A stretch of DNA of 64,000 nt from Desulfovibrio sp. TomC (GTDB lineage: Bacteria; Desulfobacterota; Desulfovibrionia; Desulfovibrionales; Desulfovibrionaceae). Below are positions 19,692 to 33,178 of the stretch, piece by piece. Position 1 is the first letter of the stretch, and every line of letters starts with the position of its first letter. The position numbers and the translations under genes were made by a program. The stretch covers positions 1 through 64,000 of the forward strand of contig NZ_JSEH01000003.1 in the NCBI RefSeq assembly GCF_000801335.2, given 5' to 3'. The notes beneath the pieces are model-generated. The model worked only from the letters and a program-made list of their open reading frames with translations. It ran no database searches and was not told the origin of the DNA.

Positions 19692-19731
19692 GCGTCACGC
19701 GTTTTCCGTGGCCTCGTCACCGGACCGTAAC
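19692..19731 (+). promoter_or_regulatory. Tandem Pho-box-like repeats upstream of pstS
   Basis: Four 7-mers on an exact 11-bp period: GCGTCAC (19692), TTTCCGT (19703), TCGTCAC (19714) and CCGTAAC (19725). This is the geometry of PhoB direct repeats (7-mer plus 4-bp spacer, consensus CTGTCAT). The second unit is poor. The array ends 82 bp before the start codon. Confidence 0.45.
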
Positions 19732-19813: not shown

Positions 19814-20617
19814 ATGAAAAAGCTTATTGGCATCGTGGCTGTGTTTCTGCTGATGGCCTCTACCGCCCTGGCCGACACCAGCATCAAGGTTGACGGTTCC
19901 ACCACCGTCCTGCCCATCATGCAGAAGGTCGTCGAGGCCTACATGAAAGCCCATCCGGATGTGAAGATCTCCGTGTCCGGCGGCGGTTCGGGCAACGGCA
20001 TCAAGGCCCTGATCGACGGCGCCACCGACATCGCCATGGCTTCGCGCGCCATTGAGCCCAAGGAAATCGATCTGGCCAAGAGCAAGAACATCACTCCCAC
20101 CCAGACGGTTTGCGCCATTGACGCCATCGTGCCCATCGTCAACCCGGCCAACAAGCTTGGCGAGATCACCCTGGCCCAGCTCAAGGACCTCTACATGGGC
20201 AAGGTCACCAGCTGGAAGGACCTCGGCGGCGAAGGCCCGGTGGTCGTCATCTCCCGCGACACTTCTTCGGGCACCTACGAGACCTGGGAAGGTCTGGTCA
20301 TGAAGAAGGAACGCGTGTTCCCCGGCGCGCTCATGCAGGCCTCCAACGGCGCGGTCGTCCAGGCCGTCAGCAAGAACAAGAACGCCATGGGCTACGTCGG
20401 CATCGGCTACCTTGACGCGTCCACCAAGGGCCTCAAGGTTGACGGCATCGAGCCCACTCCGGAGAATGCCAAGTCCAAGAAGTACCCCATCTCCCGTGAA
20501 CTCTATATCTACACCAACGGCGCTCCGGCCGGCGCCGCCAAGGGTCTGGTCGACTTTCTGCTGAGCGCCGACGGCCAGAAGCTCGTCAAGGAAGCCGGCT
20601 TCGTTCCCCTGAACTAG
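19814..20617 (+). CDS. pstS: Phosphate ABC transporter binding protein PstS
   Basis: Periplasmic high-affinity phosphate-binding protein. 267 residues, Sec signal peptide (about 1-20, ending ALAD). Phosphate-binding loops are visible: DGSTTVLP, SGGGSGNGIKA, MASRAIEPKE and SRDTSSGTYETWE. The C-terminus (LLSADGQKLVKEAGFVPL) is typical. GGAGG precedes the ATG by eight bases. First gene of pstS-pstC-pstA; a strong hairpin without a T-run separates it from pstC. Confidence 0.95.
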   Translation: MKKLIGIVAVFLLMASTALADTSIKVDGSTTVLPIMQKVVEAYMKAHPDVKISVSGGGSGNGIKALIDGATDIAMASRAIEPKEIDLAKSKNITPTQTVCAIDAIVPIVNPANKLGEITLAQLKDLYMGKVTSWKDLGGEGPVVVISRDTSSGTYETWEGLVMKKERVFPGALMQASNGAVVQAVSKNKNAMGYVGIGYLDASTKGLKVDGIEPTPENAKSKKYPISRELYIYTNGAPAGAAKGLVDFLLSADGQKLVKEAGFVPLN

Positions 20618-20643
20618 GCCCTCGCCACATTCGATCAATTGTC

Positions 20644-20676
20644 CGCGCCCCGGCCTGCCAGACAGGCCGGGGCGCG
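20644..20676 (+). promoter_or_regulatory. Intercistronic pstS-pstC hairpin
   Basis: Perfect 14-bp GC-rich arms (20644-20657 and 20663-20676) with a 5-base loop and no U-run. Such structures commonly protect the 3' end of an abundant binding-protein mRNA and lower expression of the permease genes that follow. Confidence 0.65.
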
Positions 20677-20693
20677 TCCCCGGGGGAGACGCC

Positions 20694-21587
20694 ATGGCCT
20701 TTTCGCGCAAGTCCCAGGACTCTTTGGTCCGCAACTTCTTTTTCCTGACTGCCCTCAGTTCCATCGTGGTCCTGGCGCTGATCATGGTGTATCTTTTCAT
20801 TGAGGGGCTGCCGATTTTCGGCATCGTCTCGGTCTCCGACTTTCTCTTCGGCTCCTTGTGGTATCCCACCTCCGATCCGCCGGCTTTCGGGATCCTGCCG
20901 CTCATTGTGGCCTCTCTTTCCGTCACGGCCCTGTCCTCGGCCATTGCCATCCCGCTTGGCGTCCTGACCGCCATCTATCTGGCCGAGATCGCCAGCCGGC
21001 GCACCCGGGACTGCCTCAAGCCCGTGGTGGAGTTGTTGGCCGCCCTGCCCTCGGTCGTCATCGGCTTTTTCGGCATGGTGGTGATGGCCCCGTATCTCCA
21101 GGATACCTTTGATCTGGCCACCGGACTCAATCTCTTCAATGCCGCCGTCATGCTGGCCTTTATGTCCGTGCCCACCATCTGCTCGGTGTCTGAAGACGCC
21201 ATCTACGCCGTGCCCCGTGAGCTCAAGGAAGCCTCGCTGGCCCTGGGGGCGACCCATTTCGAGACCATCGCCAAAGTGGTGCTGCCGGCCTCGCTGTCGG
21301 GCATCTCCACGGCCGTCATGCTCGGCATGTCCCGGGCCATCGGCGAGACCATGGTCGTCCTCATGGTGGCCGGCGGCGCGGCCATGATCCCCAACTCCAT
21401 CTTTTCACCGGTGCGGCCCATGCCGTCGAGCATTGCGGCGGAAATGGCCGAGGCCTCGTTTCGGGGCAACCACTACCGGGCCCTTTTCGCCATCGGCATC
21501 GTGCTGTTCCTGTTCACCCTGGTCTTCAACCTCGTGGCCAGCCACGTGGCCGAAAAGCACAAGCAGGTCGGCGCGGCCACCCTGTAG
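20694..21587 (+). CDS. pstC: Phosphate ABC transporter permease PstC
   Basis: 297-residue inner-membrane protein with about six transmembrane segments. Family marks: LPLIVASLSVTALSSAIAIP, AALPSVVIGFFG, and the cytoplasmic EAA loop ELKEASLALGATHFETI followed by ARAIGET-like SRAIGETMVVL. Couples PstS to the ATPase. Lies 21 bp upstream of pstA. Confidence 0.93.
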   Translation: MAFSRKSQDSLVRNFFFLTALSSIVVLALIMVYLFIEGLPIFGIVSVSDFLFGSLWYPTSDPPAFGILPLIVASLSVTALSSAIAIPLGVLTAIYLAEIASRRTRDCLKPVVELLAALPSVVIGFFGMVVMAPYLQDTFDLATGLNLFNAAVMLAFMSVPTICSVSEDAIYAVPRELKEASLALGATHFETIAKVVLPASLSGISTAVMLGMSRAIGETMVVLMVAGGAAMIPNSIFSPVRPMPSSIAAEMAEASFRGNHYRALFAIGIVLFLFTLVFNLVASHVAEKHKQVGAATL

Positions 21588-21608
21588 CCCCTGCCAAGGA
21601 GCCTTGTC

Positions 21609-22490
21609 ATGAATCCAAGCGCCATCGCCCACGCCGGACTGGCCAGACGGCATCGCACCCAGAAGATCATGTGGGGCGTCTTCGGGGCGGCCTCGGTGAT
21701 CAACATGGCCGCGCTGGTCCTTATCTGCGGTTTCCTGCTCATCAAAGGCCTGCCGGCCATCTCCTGGACCTTTTTAACCGAGATGCCGCGCGACTCCATG
21801 ACCGCCGGCGGCATTTTGCCCTGCATCCTGGGGACGCTCTATCTGAGCCTTGGCACCATGGCCGTGGCCTTTCCGCTGGGCGTGGCCTCGGCGGTCTACT
21901 TGAACGAATACGCCCGGCCGGGCCGCACCCTGCGGCTTATTCGCCTGGGCATCAACAATCTGGCCGGCGTGCCCTCGGTGGTCTTCGGCCTCTTTGGCCT
22001 GGCCTTTTTCGTCACCTTCTTCGGCCTGGGCGTGAGCCTGCTGTCGGGCATCCTGACGCTCTCCATCCTGGTCCTGCCGGTCATCATCGGCACGGCCGAG
22101 GAAGCGCTCAAGTCCGTGCCCCAGACCTACCGCGAGGCCTCGCTCGGCCTTGGGGCCACCAAGTGGCAGACCATCCGGCTGGTGGTCCTGCCGGCGGCCC
22201 TGCCCGGGATGCTCACCGGAGCCATTCTCGGCCTGTCGCGGGTGGCCGGCGAGACGGCGGCCATCATGTTCACGGCGGCGGTCTTCTTCACGCCCTATCT
22301 GCCGACCAATCTGACCGATTCGGTCATGGCCCTGCCATACCACATCTACGTCCTGGCCACGGCCGGCACCGACATCGTCAAGACCAGGCCGCTGCAATAC
22401 GGCACGGCCCTGGTGCTGATCGTTTTGGTGCTCGGCATGAACCTCGGGGCCATCCTGTACCGGGCCAAGCTGCAAAAGCAGCGTCGCTAG
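21609..22490 (+). CDS. pstA: Phosphate ABC transporter permease PstA
   Basis: 293-residue permease with about six membrane spans. Conserved PLGVASAVYLNEYA, GVPSVVFGLFGLAFF, the EAA loop TYREASLGLGATKWQTIR, and LSRVAGETAAIMFTAA. Together with PstC it forms the phosphate channel. pstB and a stand-alone phoU would normally follow, but a terminator and the phoH-like gene come next. Confidence 0.93.
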   Translation: MNPSAIAHAGLARRHRTQKIMWGVFGAASVINMAALVLICGFLLIKGLPAISWTFLTEMPRDSMTAGGILPCILGTLYLSLGTMAVAFPLGVASAVYLNEYARPGRTLRLIRLGINNLAGVPSVVFGLFGLAFFVTFFGLGVSLLSGILTLSILVLPVIIGTAEEALKSVPQTYREASLGLGATKWQTIRLVVLPAALPGMLTGAILGLSRVAGETAAIMFTAAVFFTPYLPTNLTDSVMALPYHIYVLATAGTDIVKTRPLQYGTALVLIVLVLGMNLGAILYRAKLQKQRR

Positions 22491-22878: not shown

Positions 22879-24087
22879 ATGACCGAAGGCGGCAACGCCC
22901 AGGGACGCAAGAACTACGTCCTGGACACCAACGTGCTCATCGAGAACCCGCAGTGCGTGCTCAAACTGCGAAACGGCGTGGAAAACGCCATCCACATTCC
23001 CTACCACGTGCTCATGGAGCTGGAAGGACTCAAAAAGACACCCAAGCTGCGCCATATTGTGGCCAATGTCATCGGCGTCTTAAGCGAACACCGCGACGCC
23101 ATCCACTTCATTCAAAACGACAAGAGCCACTCGGCCTTCACCGACATCGTCGACAACCACATCCTCGACGAGATCCAGGCTTCATCCATCGAAGACCCGA
23201 TCCTGGTCACCAACGACCGTATCTTGAAGCTCCAGGCCGAGTTGCGGGGCCTTAAAAGCGAGGAACTGCGCGATTCCAAGCCCTTTGAGTCCGAATCCCA
23301 GCGCTATACCGGCTTTGCGGAGGAAGGCGAGGAGATCGTCCCCAACTGTTTCACCTGGCGCGAGGGCAAGCCGGTGCTCCATACGCCGGACGGCGAGCGG
23401 GTCATCAACCATACCTGCGACGTCTGGAATGTGCGGCCGCGCACGGTGTATCAGAATCTGGCCCTGGAACTGATCATGGCCCCGCATATCGATCTCGTTT
23501 CCATCCAAAGCGAGGCCGGCTACGGCAAGACGTTTCTGGCCCTGGCCGCGGCCCTTTTCGCGGTGCAGGAAAAAAAGCAGTTCGAGAAAATCTTCGTCCT
23601 CAAACCAACGATCGAGATCGGGGCCAAGATGGGCTATCTGCCCGGCGATGTGTCGGAAAAGATGGAGCCGTACGTCAAATACGTCTTTGAACTGCTGGTC
23701 AAGCTGCACCGCTGCCGGGCGGCCAACAAGGTGTTTTTAAATCCCAACGACGAGATGCTGCGGGTCAACCCGAAGAAGTTCGAAATCCTGCCCCTGGCCT
23801 TTGTGCGCGGCATGAACATCGAAAATGCCTTTGTGGTCATCGACGAGGCCCAGAATCTGGCCCGTTCGGAAGTGCGCGCCCTGCTCACCCGCATGGGCGA
23901 GGGAGTCAAGTGCGTGGTCCTTGGCGACACCTCGCAGGTGGACAACCCCTATCTCAACGAGGCCAACAACGGGCTCAACTGGATCGTACGCAAGTTCAAG
24001 GGGTTCCCCAACTATGCCCATATCGTGCTCAAGGGCGAGCGCTCGCGCGGCCCGATCACGGACATGGTGCTGAAATCGAAGCTGTAA
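22879..24087 (+). CDS. PIN-PhoH family ATPase (YlaK type)
   Basis: 402 residues, cytosolic. An N-terminal PIN nuclease domain starts at YVLDTNVLIENP, with further acidic residues in TDIVDNHILDE and NDRILK. A PhoH P-loop ATPase follows (about 200-400): Walker A QSEAGYGKTFLA and Walker B AFVVIDEAQNL, then GLGDTSQVD-like VLGDTSQVDNP. The combination is thought to act on RNA, and such PIN-PhoH proteins have shown RNA helicase/RNase activity in mycobacteria. GGAGG lies before ATG 22879. The name reflects homology to phosphate-starvation PhoH; adjacency to pst is suggestive but it has its own transcription unit. Confidence 0.9.
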   Translation: MTEGGNAQGRKNYVLDTNVLIENPQCVLKLRNGVENAIHIPYHVLMELEGLKKTPKLRHIVANVIGVLSEHRDAIHFIQNDKSHSAFTDIVDNHILDEIQASSIEDPILVTNDRILKLQAELRGLKSEELRDSKPFESESQRYTGFAEEGEEIVPNCFTWREGKPVLHTPDGERVINHTCDVWNVRPRTVYQNLALELIMAPHIDLVSIQSEAGYGKTFLALAAALFAVQEKKQFEKIFVLKPTIEIGAKMGYLPGDVSEKMEPYVKYVFELLVKLHRCRAANKVFLNPNDEMLRVNPKKFEILPLAFVRGMNIENAFVVIDEAQNLARSEVRALLTRMGEGVKCVVLGDTSQVDNPYLNEANNGLNWIVRKFKGFPNYAHIVLKGERSRGPITDMVLKSKL

Positions 24088-28962: not shown

Positions 28963-30597
28963 TCAGAAGATGAGGACAGGGTCGGGAAAGGCCAGCTCCT
29001 CCCAGGGGCGGCCGGCATGATCCACAACCCGGGTCAGCAGATAGACGCCCCGGTGGAACAGTTCCTGGGCAAAGGGACGTTTGACCTCGAAGCGGGCCGA
29101 GGTGGCCAGGGCCCGGGCCAGGGCAAAGGTCAATCGGGCTTCGAAGGTCGTATCCCCCTGTTCGGCGGCAAACCCCCGGGCAAATTCCAGGAACCGGTGC
29201 ATGACCAGCTCGAGTTGGCTGCGCACGGCCTGATCGAAAAAGGGCAGCCGGAAATTGGAGGCCAGGAAGACCGCCGTATCATGGGCATAGTCGCCGTCCC
29301 GGGAACGGTTCAGGTCAATGTAGTGGATACGCTGGGCGGTATGGTCGTAGACGAGATTGTTGAGGTTGAAATCGCCGTGCAAAAAGACGGCAAAAGGAGC
29401 GGCCAGGGTCTTTTCTGCCGCTTCGGCCGCGGTGAGGAGATCGGTCAGGGCCGGAACGGACTGATTGCCGATGGTCTTGGCCTCGTCGGCAAAGGCCGGA
29501 TGCAGCCGCAGCACGTCGTCGAGACGGGCGCGCAACTGGGCCACGGCCTCGCCCGCAACCGGCCGGCGCACCAGGGTCTGTTCCCACAGTCCGCCTACGG
29601 TCTGGGTGATGAGAAAACAGGCGTTTTCGATGATGTCCCGGTCGGACGTGAGCACGATTTGCTGCACATTGCAGCCGCCCAGATACTCCAGGAGCATGGA
29701 GGCCGAGTCGCCTTCGGTCTGAAAGGCCTGGATGCTCGGGGCCAGTCCCGGGGAAAGCCGCTCCCAGCGTTCGATATTCTCTTTTTCCTTGGCCAGCTTG
29801 GCCGCATTGCCTTCCTTAAACAGCACGCCCTTGGAGCGTGCGCCGTGCTCTTCCTGGACCCGGCCGATGCGGCAGCCGGAGCGGGTCCCCCAGATGGAAT
29901 GGAAGTCGCCGGCCGGGATGGGCGTTTCCTCGCCAAGTTCCAGGGTATCCTGAAGTGCCTGATACTGATGGATCTTGAGTTTTTCACCCAGGGCCGCAAA
30001 GATGACGGCCTCGCCGATATTGAGCAGGGCGTCGCCCATCCGTTCGAGATACCGGAAGATGTTGAAACTGGAGATGGCGTTTTCCGGGGATTCGCCCCGG
30101 CGCAGGTCGGCCAGGATGGCATCGAAGGCGGTCTTGAAATGGTCGTCCAAGGAGAACTCGGCCCGGCAGATGCGCAGGGCCAGTTTGACGTCCTGTCGGG
30201 TGAGCGCCGAAAAAACCAGCCCCAGGGCCTTGTCCACGTCCACAAAGGGAGCGCGGTAGTTGTAGCGCCGGATAAACTTGGGGTCGGTCAGGTATTGGAC
30301 CTGGTTGACGACGTTGACGGCGTAGTCCGCGATGCGTTCCAGGTTGATGTTGATGATGTTGGCGGCGCGTACGAGGTCGAGCGTGCGCTTGTTGCGGTCG
30401 GTGGAACCGTGGATGCGTCCCCAGCAAGCGTTTTCGATGACGCTCTTTAAGTTGTCGATATAGTCGTCGCGGCTTTCAATCCGTTTGATCTGCTCCGGGT
30501 CCGGGCTTTCCACCACAGTCAGGGCGCTGCCCACCTGTTTGGAGACCTCCAGGACCATGAATCGGAAATTTTCCTCGATGCCTTCCAGAATGCGCAT
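28963..30597 (-). CDS. PhoU domain fused to an aminoglycoside-phosphotransferase-like kinase
   Basis: 544 residues, cytosolic. The first ~215 form a PhoU-like pair of three-helix bundles with the two metal-binding ERxxD helices clearly present: NLERIADYAVNVVNQ (near 86) and YLERMGDALLNIGEAV (near 185). The rest (about 240-530) is an APH/choline-kinase-type fold: a lysine-bearing N-lobe (GVLFKEGNAAKLAKEKE), the catalytic loop LHGDFNLNN (from about 406) and the metal motif IDLNRSRDGD (about 427). All catalytic residues look intact. The substrate is unknown. ATG 30597 has GAGG upstream. The gene is 19 bp after an amphi-Trp gene. PhoU normally senses or gates the phosphate transporter, so this may be a phosphate-responsive kinase. 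Confidence 0.82.
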   Translation of the reverse strand: MRILEGIEENFRFMVLEVSKQVGSALTVVESPDPEQIKRIESRDDYIDNLKSVIENACWGRIHGSTDRNKRTLDLVRAANIININLERIADYAVNVVNQVQYLTDPKFIRRYNYRAPFVDVDKALGLVFSALTRQDVKLALRICRAEFSLDDHFKTAFDAILADLRRGESPENAISSFNIFRYLERMGDALLNIGEAVIFAALGEKLKIHQYQALQDTLELGEETPIPAGDFHSIWGTRSGCRIGRVQEEHGARSKGVLFKEGNAAKLAKEKENIERWERLSPGLAPSIQAFQTEGDSASMLLEYLGGCNVQQIVLTSDRDIIENACFLITQTVGGLWEQTLVRRPVAGEAVAQLRARLDDVLRLHPAFADEAKTIGNQSVPALTDLLTAAEAAEKTLAAPFAVFLHGDFNLNNLVYDHTAQRIHYIDLNRSRDGDYAHDTAVFLASNFRLPFFDQAVRSQLELVMHRFLEFARGFAAEQGDTTFEARLTFALARALATSARFEVKRPFAQELFHRGVYLLTRVVDHAGRPWEELAFPDPVLIF

Positions 30598-30616
30598 AGA
30601 CCGGTCCTCCCGGGTG

Positions 30617-30898
30617 TCAGGACTGCTCGCCCGGGGCAATGGTCAGGCCCGCGTCGCCGTCGTCCTCGGCGGAGGTTTCCCGCCAGGAAAATTTAAGATG
30701 GAGCTTCATGCGTCCGTCCATGGACTTGGCCTCGACCAGAAAGCCGAGCATGCCCTTGGGATGGAGCACCACTTCGCCTTCGCGGCTGCCCAGGCGCAAT
30801 TCCCCCGAGGCAAAGCCGGCGGTGATGGCTTCGAGGTAGCGGCGCAGGGTTTGGGCGTCCTGGGTGGACTCGTATTTAAACCGGGTATCCTTCTCCAC
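30617..30898 (-). CDS. Amphi-Trp domain protein
   Basis: 93 residues consisting almost entirely of one amphi-Trp domain: an N-terminal strand and helix (FKYESTQDAQTLRRYLEAI), then alternating strands ending MKLHLKFSWRE with the name-giving tryptophan at 72. Start taken as GTG 30898 because AGGAG lies eight bases upstream and the family's N-terminus begins there; an upstream frame to 30937 has no ribosome site. Small proteins of this type are known from genomes that encode the ATP-grasp/kinase GAK system. It heads an operon with the PhoU-APH kinase and is a natural candidate for its regulator or substrate. Confidence 0.8.
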   Translation of the reverse strand: MEKDTRFKYESTQDAQTLRRYLEAITAGFASGELRLGSREGEVVLHPKGMLGFLVEAKSMDGRMKLHLKFSWRETSAEDDGDAGLTIAPGEQS

Positions 30899-31156
30899 GC
30901 TTTTTCTCCTGTCTGGCGCAGCCGCTGGCGAGGCCAAGCGGCAACAAAGTCCATTCGGGCGGCTTGGGCGGCCGGGGTCCCCTTCAAGGGCTCATTCCGG
31001 CTGCCCCGGTGTCCGGCCCCTGCTCGTTTTTTCTTGCCCAACTTTCGCATATCGACTCGGCAACGCGCCCAGTCCAATCAAACTCACCCCGGGTGGGTTT
31101 CCAAAGGGCAGTGCCCTTTGGCCGCCGGAGGCCTCTTCCGCCTTTTTATTCCCACA
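30899..31156. other. Intergenic region between the two amphi-Trp operons
   Basis: 258 bp without a gene. It holds GC-rich, partly palindromic DNA and, at the right end, a variant 3'-end palindrome. The promoter of the amphi-Trp/PhoU-APH operon should be here but I see no convincing one. Confidence 0.5.
31101..31132 (+). repeat. 3'-end palindrome, variant core
   Basis: CCAAAGGGCA-GTGCCCTTTGG replaces the G/C hairpin, but the flank GGCCGCCGGAGGC and the following CTCTTCCG match the other copies. It lies 25 bp from the stop of the minus-strand PHP-like gene. A partial relative with TTTCCAAAGGG and CTGGCCGCAGG is at 43741-43773. Confidence 0.65.
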
Positions 31157-32323
31157 TCACCCGGCCAGTCGGGTCCGGTATTCGTCGATGATCTTGCGCC
31201 GGCTCATGCCGTTTATGATGAGGCTTTTGCGGATGCTGAAGTCGTGCCAGGCCGGCTGGAGCCCGATTTCCCGGGCGGCCTTGTCCGGGTCCTGTTCGGT
31301 CACGGGGCGGGTTTTCTCGCTCATGTGGCAGTCGTCGCCCATGAAGATGAGGATGGGGCGCTTGCCGTGCCAGCCCATGCGGTTGCGGCGGTTGACCACG
31401 TTGATGAGAAATTCGGTGTAGAGCTGGGACTGGGGATTCCAGACCTCGATGCCGTCCACGTCGTAGTCGGCCAAGAGGATGGGCCAGAACTGTTCCGGGT
31501 GGGGGATGACGATGCCGGCCCCGAGCGACCGGGCCTCCTCGATGACCTCGCTTGCCCGGTAGAAATAGGACAGGGAGAATTCTTCCTTGACCAGATCCTT
31601 GACCGCCTTGGCATAGACCTGGGCCCGGTTGATGAGCCGGTCGCCAAAGCGGCTGCGCAGGGCGTCGAGGTAGTTGCGCACGAGTTTGTTCTTGTAGACG
31701 TCATCCGGAAGATCGGCTTCGTGGGCCAGGATGAGGCTTTTGATTTTGGCGGCCTGGAGGCGCACGAAGGTGACGAGTTCCTCTTCGGCGTTGGTGCGGC
31801 CGGCAGCCTTCTGGCGGCGGTCCTCGAAGGCCGGTTCGGCCAGGGCGTCGAGATATTCGAACAGCTGGGAGGCCCGGTAGCGGTGGGTGTGGCCGAGCAT
31901 GGACTTCAGCACGTCGGCCCGCTCCGGGTCCAGGCCCTTGAAATGAAGCAGAAGCTGTACCTTGCGGTTAAACCCGCTGGAATAGCAGTCCACTTCCACG
32001 CCCTGATACCCGTCGTATTCCATGAGCACGTTGTGCTGGGTGGGGATGATCAGCTCGTCCACCCGGTTGGGATACAGGGCGTTAATGCGTTGTTTGAGCA
32101 GCTCCATGGGCACGTGCTCGGGGTGCCAGTGGGCGGCCAGAACGTATTCCTGGCGGGGGTAGACCCGGGCCGGGGCGACGATGCGGCTTATCTGTTCGGG
32201 GCTTAAGGCAAAGTCGTTAATGCGCAGAAAATCGCGCTCATCGTCTTCGGTGACGGCAGGATCGACGGTCGAAAGGTCGATTTCGACGCAACGCGGCTCA
32301 ATTGCGGTCGGGGAATCAGGCAT
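31157..32323 (-). CDS. PHP-like metal-dependent hydrolase of unknown substrate
   Basis: 388 residues, cytosolic. Histidine- and acid-rich motifs on successive barrel strands point to a PHP or amidohydrolase-like metal site: VLAAHWHPEHVP near residue 60, TQHNVLMEYDGYQGVEVDCY near 95, and IPHPEQFWPILLADYDVDGIEVWN near 275, with MGDDCHMSEKTR near 330. I do not recognise a named subfamily. The ATG overlaps the stop of the amphi-Trp/XXXCH gene by eight bases (ATGCCTGA), so the two are translationally coupled and probably work together. Confidence 0.68.
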   Translation of the reverse strand: MPDSPTAIEPRCVEIDLSTVDPAVTEDDERDFLRINDFALSPEQISRIVAPARVYPRQEYVLAAHWHPEHVPMELLKQRINALYPNRVDELIIPTQHNVLMEYDGYQGVEVDCYSSGFNRKVQLLLHFKGLDPERADVLKSMLGHTHRYRASQLFEYLDALAEPAFEDRRQKAAGRTNAEEELVTFVRLQAAKIKSLILAHEADLPDDVYKNKLVRNYLDALRSRFGDRLINRAQVYAKAVKDLVKEEFSLSYFYRASEVIEEARSLGAGIVIPHPEQFWPILLADYDVDGIEVWNPQSQLYTEFLINVVNRRNRMGWHGKRPILIFMGDDCHMSEKTRPVTEQDPDKAAREIGLQPAWHDFSIRKSLIINGMSRRKIIDEYRTRLAG

Positions 32324-32918
32324 GGCGGCTGTGACACTCCTTTTTCATGCGGGAAAGGGCCGCGACCGAGCCGGTCATGGCGGCGATGTCGCCGGCGGCG
32401 ACGGCGGTCTCGAACTGGTCCACTTCAGCGTCATAAGCCGGATAGAAGGCGTCGCCCTTGCCTGGGTAGCGGGTCATGAGCCGGGAGTCGGCGATAAAGG
32501 CGGCCGCGACTCCGGCCTCGGGGACAACACCGGCCCGAAGCGCCATGACGATGGCCTTGAAGGTCTGCTTCATGCGTTTTTTAAGGCCCTTGTAGCGAGG
32601 AAGGCCATTTTTTTCAAGGGGTTCGGCGTTGTCTTGATCGGCAGTCGCCGGATCGTCCGGGCTCTCCGGGGCCTCGGCTTCGGGCCGGGGCAGGGCGTCT
32701 AGGCCCAGGGCGGGGTATTTGAGCGACACCTTGAGCATCGACGAAGCGCCGAAGTGTTTGATGCCGATTTTCAGGCTGGTAAAATCGTCAAGGACGACGG
32801 TCTCTTCGCCGATGACCAAGGCCCCGTCGGCCGCCTTGGCGGTCAGGTCGGCCAGGGCGCGCAGGGCCTCGACGCGGGGCAGCACCAGTTCGAATTTGCG
32901 TTTGCGCGATCCGTACAT
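32316..32918 (-). CDS. Amphi-Trp-like protein with XXXCH C-terminus
   Basis: 200 residues, no signal peptide. Residues 1-66 follow the amphi-Trp pattern (RKRKFELVLPRVEALRALADL, then strands to MLKVSLKYP) and align with the 93-residue amphi-Trp protein 1.4 kb away. An acidic linker (about 75-105) leads to a helical domain ending KKECHSRHA: Cys195-His196 with His199, and no cysteine three residues before. That is the pattern of the XXXCH domain described alongside the GAK system. It looks like a haem-c motif that has lost its first cysteine. ATG 32918 with GGAGG upstream. First gene of an operon with the PHP-like hydrolase. Confidence 0.78.
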   Translation of the reverse strand: MYGSRKRKFELVLPRVEALRALADLTAKAADGALVIGEETVVLDDFTSLKIGIKHFGASSMLKVSLKYPALGLDALPRPEAEAPESPDDPATADQDNAEPLEKNGLPRYKGLKKRMKQTFKAIVMALRAGVVPEAGVAAAFIADSRLMTRYPGKGDAFYPAYDAEVDQFETAVAAGDIAAMTGSVAALSRMKKECHSRHA

Positions 32919-32969: not shown

Positions 32970-32998
32970 ACGACAATCGTACGATAGGACGATGACGG
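32970..32998 (-). promoter_or_regulatory. Possible Pho-box-like repeats before the XXXCH operon
   Basis: Read on the minus strand: CCGTCAT, CTATCGT and TTGTCGT on an 11-bp period, about 50 bp upstream of the start codon. First and third units resemble CTGTCAT; the middle one is poor. The centre also holds a perfect ATCGTACGAT palindrome (32976-32985), which is an alternative reading of the same DNA. Confidence 0.25.
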
Positions 32999-33178
32999 TT
33001 TGATGGCAAGGCAGGGCGGCAGCCCAGTGGTTGCGAGAAAGCAATTAGCCTCCTTTCTTGCCAGACATCATTTCGCGGGTGTACCCTTTCCCCCATTCTC
33101 TTTGTCTGCTGCGGCGTGTCCAGATGGGGGGCGGTTTGTTGGCTTTGCCCGCTGATGTGTTGCAGAAACGGAGCTGTT

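Follow-up and report, generated by a model that had tools for sequence, protein, structure and literature searches.

Five protein families are already named in NCBIfam models as a GAK system, namely amphi-Trp (TIGR04354), HprK-related kinase B (HprK-B, TIGR04355), an ATP-grasp protein (TIGR04356), a CofD-like protein (TIGR04357) and XXXCH (TIGR04358). A literature search with 'GAK system', 'amphi-Trp', 'HprK-related kinase' and further terms yielded no paper on GAK in the library covered, and the word 'undescribed', applied to the present locus in an earlier reading of the DNA (the original prediction), is fair as to function. The window, i.e. the whole stretch of 64,000 nucleotides (nt) analysed here, comprises positions 1 to 64,000 of contig NZ_JSEH01000003.1 of Desulfovibrio sp. 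TomC, and contains four neighbouring genes that encode an XXXCH-domain protein, a PHP-fold metal hydrolase, an amphi-Trp domain protein and a PhoU domain fused to an APH-type kinase domain (PhoU-kinase). It is almost certain that these four genes are part of the GAK set: two of them belong to named GAK families above cut-off, all four occur in GAK operons of relatives, and all five named families are present in the genome of the window. Unlike the system as named, the set is divided here over several loci, and the PhoU-kinase and the PHP protein have no NCBIfam name of their own. These two extra members, their modelled folds and a link to phosphate are new, and the split gene set with two PhoU-kinases is a variant of the system.

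The two extra members also resemble proteins of other systems. PhoU of the Pst/PhoR complex has its fold in common with the window protein, which differs by the kinase fusion. Methylthioribose kinase, PsiK, maltokinase and APH(3'), all APH/choline-kinase-like small-molecule kinases, share the fold and catalytic residues of the window kinase, which is however tethered to PhoU. CV1693 is a 3',5'-nucleotide bisphosphate phosphatase according to the title of a reference within PMC9410882, and PMC9410882 describes a fold, active-site architecture and mechanism common to RNase AM and CV1693. The PHP protein of the window has the same fold and the same HxH, late His and DxH motifs.

Gene organisation and GAK operons in relatives

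The predicted genes, with their order, strand and spacing, were borne out by a check of the open reading frames (ORFs), all four of which are intact on the minus strand. The gene for the XXXCH-domain protein (32316..32918, 200 amino acids (aa); TIGR04358, 99.9 bits) shares an 8-nt overlap with that for the PHP-fold hydrolase, a probable phosphoesterase (31157..32323, 388 aa; assigned by modelled fold). After a gap of 258 nt (30899..31156) follow the amphi-Trp gene (30617..30898, 93 aa; TIGR04354, 69.1 bits; PF20068, 27.1 bits), which was bounded by a GTG start with a TTG start possible farther upstream, and, 19 nt on, the PhoU-kinase gene (28963..30597, 544 aa; Pfam PhoU, 80.1 bits; Pfam APH, 31.2 bits). 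The profile searches proposed with the original prediction thus placed TIGR04358, TIGR04354, PhoU and APH all above their cut-offs (40, 31, 23.5 and 23.2 bits, respectively; 27 bits for PF20068, and 300, 200 and 340 bits for ATP-grasp, HprK-B and CofD-like). As to the further claim of two operons, the gap contains a dispersed repeat with 42 matches in its own genome including itself, at least about 40 others (40 of 262 first-look candidates were scored), and relatives show one operon in which the four genes are more tightly packed (e.g. 39 nt between PHP and amphi-Trp in locus L045). Because the gap holds a dispersed repeat and can be short in relatives, the two-operon appearance is likely to be recent. 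The repeat copies, perhaps REP- or MITE-like, are 75-90% identical over ~50-170 bp. The ratio of nonsynonymous to synonymous substitution rates (dN/dS) was 0.13-0.24 for three of the genes and 0.34-0.43 for XXXCH (2 to 6 comparisons per gene), indicating purifying selection.

The usual gene order in Desulfovibrionaceae is XXXCH-PHP-amphi-Trp-PhoU-kinase-ATP-grasp-HprK-B-CofD. Neighbours were counted by tblastn in named loci containing a PHP relative (the best 80 out of 180), with the loci of sufficient sequence for each gene as denominator; ad hoc gene calls split or missed genes (e.g. in L047, L049, L051 and L052), and via that route L048, L054, L055 and L075 received no PHP, PhoU-kinase, ATP-grasp or XXXCH label. 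The PhoU-kinase lies within 1.5 kb after PHP in 73/75 loci, amphi-Trp within 500 nt after PHP in 70/78 and ATP-grasp within 7.5 kb of PHP in 58/66, while XXXCH stands upstream of PHP in 46/73 and HprK-B and CofD are present in 45/60 and 39/56, respectively. Of the eight loci without ATP-grasp, six are of the window's type (from Solidesulfovibrio and its close relatives) and two belong to planctomycetes (L110 and L161). Nine genomes were checked for an ATP-grasp elsewhere; eight have one above cut-off, comprising the L110 planctomycete and seven genomes of the window's type. The match in the ninth, the L161 genome, was partial and below cut-off. L161 is on a Phycisphaerales chromosome, and its PhoU-kinase region is not one open frame in the gene calls, perhaps marking a decaying GAK locus.

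The co-occurrence sample consisted of 119 genomes of the family. PHP was found in 59, and a strong PhoU-kinase match in the same 59 (a few of them partial or in two pieces). ATP-grasp scored above cut-off in 58 of these 59, the exception (G055) being 87% complete, and none of the 119 genomes had ATP-grasp above cut-off without PHP. XXXCH accompanied PHP in 58/59 genomes and was present in five genomes without it. Co-occurrence and the neighbourhood check show that the genes travel together, in support of the original prediction. The idea of a system separate from the GAK enzymes fared differently: the relatives' operons continue into the GAK genes, the window's own genome carries these enzymes at other loci, and ATP-grasp is present in 58 of the 59 genomes. 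As the main reading, GAK independence was ruled out by the relatives' operons and co-occurrence; it is retained as a rival below.

Plasmids of Qingshengfaniella, Pseudooceanicola and Tritonibacter also carry a PhoU-kinase homologue, in each case inside an operon annotated as GAK; these are the three of seven plasmid matches that were opened for operon inspection. These operons contain genes for ATP-grasp, HprK-related kinase B, a histidine phosphatase, a metallophosphoesterase and amphi-Trp, with a CofD-like gene in two of the three. No PHP match was found in the three alphaproteobacterial operons, in which the histidine phosphatase and the metallophosphoesterase may fill the PHP slot. Loci with PHP itself come from records, many of them metagenome-assembled genomes, whose titles name sulfate-reducing 'delta' groups, Phycisphaerae, Nitrospinota, Atribacteria and Eisenbacteria. 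In L068 (11360-15496), a locus of another genus, HprK-B and CofD are separated by genes for peroxiredoxin, pta and ackA, and the same clusters are found in L070 and L073 of that genus.

Within the window, tblastn with annotated GAK proteins gave no ATP-grasp, HprK-B or CofD gene. The original prediction that none of these enzymes is here is true of the window and does not extend to the genome: ATP-grasp (424 bits) and HprK-B (549 bits) are on C30 and CofD-like (529 bits) is on C2, all above cut-off, and own-genome searches found ATP-grasp on C30 only and CofD on C2 only. The C30 locus also encodes a second amphi-Trp protein and a second PhoU-kinase, 48% identical to the window copy. A FastTree phylogeny of PhoU-kinases places the window copy with those of full operons from another genus (L042 and L089; support 0.996). 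The C30 copy falls into a different lineage, among whose members is a full operon (L046; support 0.994). Given that the two copies group with different full-operon lineages, the most likely ancestor of the window locus is a full operon whose second half was lost or moved, and another GAK locus most likely supplies ATP-grasp and HprK-B. It seems reasonably probable that the GAK set is broken up over at least three loci in this genus, with the four genes as its kinase/phosphatase arm. A gene for a magnesium-translocating P-type ATPase follows HprK-B on C30 (L011, 12240-15017), and a gene of the same cluster stands beside ATP-grasp in L081 of another genus.

Modelled folds of the encoded proteins

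The PhoU domain of the fusion protein covers residues ~1-221 and the APH-type kinase domain residues ~232-544. In the structural model (predicted local distance difference test (pLDDT) 87.7, predicted template-modelling score 0.66), the PhoU part is a helical bundle with Z 25.5 to 1t72, and the kinase part matches PsiK (Z 21.8), methylthioribose kinase (21.7), maltokinase (19.2) and APH(3')-Ia (18.7). K261, E271, the motif H407-G-D409-x-N411-x-x-N414 and D428 are invariant in 51 sequences, the number used for residue conservation in both the PhoU-kinase and the PHP protein and for the AlphaFold2 model of the latter; their catalytic roles are presumably those of the APH family. The predicted intact APH-type kinase is thus consistent with both the modelled fold of the C-terminal domain and the invariant catalytic residues. 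Against the curated PhoU equivalog model TIGR02135, the fusion scored 78.9 bits, under the cut-off of 130.25. An APH(3') aminoglycoside resistance kinase was ruled out (25.9 bits vs a cut-off of 205), other listed APH cut-offs also being missed.

Pfam, NCBIfam and PDB sequence and profile searches gave nothing convincing for a PHP assignment by sequence, and the assignment was accepted because of the modelled fold. The model (pLDDT 90.4) had 3o0f as best PDB match in VIA-align (Z 16.4, root-mean-square deviation 3.4 over 239 residues), along with, at 14-16% identity over aligned residues, RNase AM (9etk, Z 14.9) and CV1693 (2yb1, Z 14.7). The candidate metal ligands H65, H67, H97, E110, H127, H275, D331 and H333 are invariant in the aligned sequences; a counterpart of RNase AM Asp20 was not identified. 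The PHP-like hydrolase of the original prediction is therefore borne out by the modelled similarity to a PHP phosphoesterase, and the protein is a probable phosphoesterase as judged from this model.

The XXXCH domain occupies the C-terminal residues 109-198 of its protein. The N-terminal region, residues ~1-56, is amphi-Trp-like, with an hhalign probability of 92.5 over 56 columns against the amphi-Trp profile; the predicted second amphi-Trp domain is thus seen by profile-profile comparison only and not by curated models. In L120, L134 and L159 the match preceding PHP is itself to amphi-Trp. The C-terminal end resembles that of cytochrome c'. Searched against PDB, the family profile gave 25 matches at E ≤ 1, of which 22 are to cytochrome c or c', with a weak best E of 0.043. 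No signal peptide was seen in the XXXCH protein. A second XXXCH match lies at G000:C6:122824-123096 within a 113-aa open frame; the surrounding 19 kb (L015) gave no match to a GAK protein, and short XXXCH matches of this kind are present in related genomes. Amphi-Trp matches were found at five places in the genome, two of which adjoin GAK genes. The three others, above cut-off, are on C1, C11 and C2 (L003, L004 and L005), away from GAK enzymes, and Haloferax volcanii, from the control list, likewise has an amphi-Trp match.

Association with phosphate genes and PhoB-box-like sites

According to PMC3333781, the PhoB box of D. vulgaris is a repeat of the 6-bp unit (c/t)GT(n)AC across a 4-bp spacer, and PhoB targets include pst, PhoU and pta-ack genes. 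A slightly less strict pattern was used here, namely YGTNAY twice with a spacer of 4 or 5. Sites were counted in 71 of the 80 loci, the other nine lacking a called PHP gene or enough upstream sequence, or having N in the upstream region. Exact PhoB-box-like sites precede 18/71 GAK operons vs 14/489 other operon starts in the same loci, and 10/473 once 14 divergent neighbours sharing the GAK upstream region had been dropped from the controls (p = 7e-11). Further controls gave 6/272 for plus-strand starts and 2/355 exact sites for base-shuffled upstream regions. With one locus per 75%-identity cluster, the enrichment had a median p of 3e-6 and a worst of 5e-5.

Genes of the pst/phoU group were found in 13/80 loci by thresholds of our own. 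phoU is the next same-strand gene upstream of XXXCH, at 60-210 nt, in L045, L050, L091 and L115, and PstB and PhoU score above NCBIfam cut-off in L045, L047 and L050. In L050, genes for a PhoB-type regulator, a PhoR-type kinase, PstB and PhoU lead up to XXXCH, with PhoU 117 nt before it; the PhoB- and PhoR-type assignments in L050, and in L045 too, come from best matches that stay below cut-off. In L115, pstS-C-A-B-phoU runs directly into XXXCH, 64 nt away, and one or two genes separate the pst/phoU genes from XXXCH in L127 and L144. Read from the family-wide search table, PstA lies within 15 kb of PHP in 8/59 genomes of three genera.

The window itself contains pstS-pstC-pstA phosphate transporter genes on the plus strand (19814..22490; TIGR02136, TIGR02138 and TIGR00974 above cut-off). 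Of the two exact PhoB-box-like sites in the window, one lies ahead of these genes, at 19715 and 99 bp from pstS. The transporter genes are followed on the same strand by a PhoH-family gene (22879..24087; best match NF053827, 161 bits, below the cut-off of 680), the whole ~5-9 kb from the four-gene set. Upstream of the four genes, on the minus strand, is the block TTGCCAT-CAAA-CCGTCAT-CGTC-CTATCGT (32981..33009), which can be read as Pho-box-like repeats in 11-bp steps or as a -35/-10 promoter. TTGCCAT is invariant in nine related, otherwise diverged upstream regions (window included), and the second half-site CGTCAT is present in six of the nine. The block is one mismatch from the PhoB-box-like pattern and holds two overlapping E. 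coli Pho-box matches at three mismatches, of which the window has six in total vs 2.3 expected.

PhoB-box-like sites and pst/phoU neighbours together provide a statistical link in favour of the predicted phosphate control. It is likely that the GAK set is Pho-linked, and the data from relatives suggest that phosphate shortage switches it on. A phosphate-limitation fitness paper on D. alaskensis G20 (PMC5193443) names pst, phoR and phoU; the terms ATP-grasp, aminoglycoside and PHP are absent from its main text.

Discussion

The simplest and most likely reading is that a PhoU-governed kinase is opposed by a PHP phosphoesterase, of which we infer all steps past a Pho-linked kinase and phosphoesterase. 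PhoB would turn the genes on when phosphate is short. The PhoU domain would sense phosphate status, through metal/phosphate or a partner such as Pst/PhoR, and control the attached kinase, which would use ATP to phosphorylate a small metabolite at a hydroxyl group. Hydrolysis of the phosphoester by the PHP protein would then reset the cycle, and the RimK-type ATP-grasp, the CofD-like transferase and HprK-B may act subsequently on that compound or on a small carrier, for which the amphi-Trp proteins are candidates. XXXCH, with its cytochrome c'-like domain, might add a redox or gas signal. Of the kinase/phosphatase pair under phosphate control that the original prediction envisaged, the kinase fold, the PHP phosphoesterase fold and the phosphate link were found, and the cycle itself is deduced from them; that it acts on one small molecule is proposed tentatively, at somewhat below an even chance.

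Several observations weigh against this reading. 53 of the 71 GAK promoters have no exact PhoB-box-like site, and the fetched sequence, short in some cases, shows neither pst nor phoU in 67 of the 80 loci. Another set of promoters, which partly overlaps the first and includes the window's, gave an exact site in 3/41, rising at one mismatch or fewer to 18/41 (the window's among them) vs 59/489 controls. The opposite strand is also enriched (11/71 vs 9/489), partly since the pattern is near-palindromic, and the block upstream of the window locus also fits a sigma-70 promoter, TTGCCA-17-TATCGT, and may be an ordinary promoter. As for the enzymes, the HWHPE and TQHN motifs of the window PHP family differ from what we take to be the usual PHP pattern, and activity cannot be assumed. 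PHP and PhoU-kinase are on separate contigs in Solidesulfovibrio aerotolerans, and L150 has no PhoU-kinase after PHP, indicating that the two need not adjoin.

The best surviving alternative, although unlikely, is that the four-gene locus is a stand-alone kinase/phosphatase switch no longer needing the GAK enzymes, with C30 as a working GAK system having its own PhoU-kinase and amphi-Trp. The different descent of the two PhoU-kinases, at 48% identity, speaks for it, as do the purifying selection on a window locus without ATP-grasp, HprK-B and CofD and the planctomycete loci L110 and L161, also without a nearby ATP-grasp. However, PHP without ATP-grasp above cut-off is confined to one of the 59 family genomes (the 87% complete one) and one of the nine checked genomes (L161, with its partial match), and the genome was found to have a single PHP and a single CofD, which sit in different loci, so that the parts look shared.

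Coenzyme F420 synthesis is the model for another, distinctly improbable alternative, in which GAK builds a cofactor- or tail-like compound: the kinase would make a phosphorylated hydroxy acid, the CofD-like protein would pass it to an acceptor, an MptN/RimK-like ATP-grasp would add an amino acid, and PHP would be a salvage or editing phosphatase. The next-best NCBIfam matches of the C30 ATP-grasp are indeed MptN (122 bits) and the RimK family (84 bits), and that of the L074 CofD-like protein is a CofD-related/YvcK model (122 bits), but all of these secondary matches are below curated cut-offs; nor was a guanylyltransferase (CofC-like) noticed among the GAK genes, where no search was aimed at one. 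Equally improbable is a protein-modifying role, with HprK-B and ATP-grasp phosphorylating and amino-acylating the small amphi-Trp proteins and the PhoU-kinase and PHP setting the phosphorylation of the same target. Such a role would suit the RimK-like ATP-grasp, the weak match of HprK-B to HPr kinase and the five amphi-Trp places, two next to GAK genes, while the closest folds of the kinase domain are mostly small-molecule kinases and the closest characterised folds of PHP act on nucleotides and RNA ends. A decaying remnant was ruled out by dN/dS and the intact conserved residues.

A broader and still more speculative proposal, which we consider very unlikely, is that GAK is the bacterial counterpart, in logic and not in descent, of inositol-pyrophosphate/SPX phosphate signalling, with starvation-induced enzymes that make, read (through the PhoU domain) and remove a phosphorylated messenger. 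PPIP5K, the eukaryotic inositol pyrophosphate kinase/phosphatase, is described as joining kinase and phosphatase domains. The plasmid GAK operons likewise set ATP-grasp beside a histidine phosphatase, which is an analogy only. The kinase of PPIP5K is of the ATP-grasp type and its phosphatase of the histidine-phosphatase type. The GAK ATP-grasp differs in being RimK/MptN-like, and no inositol link was seen, the two papers returned by the literature search being eukaryote-centred. If the messenger proposal were true, the long-sought ligand of PhoU would be the product of these kinases.

Under the favoured reading of a PhoU-governed kinase opposed by a PHP phosphoesterase, the covalent joining of PhoU to a small-molecule-type kinase offers a route to asking what PhoU senses. 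The GAK set is widespread yet unstudied, and phosphate limitation offers a testable condition for it.

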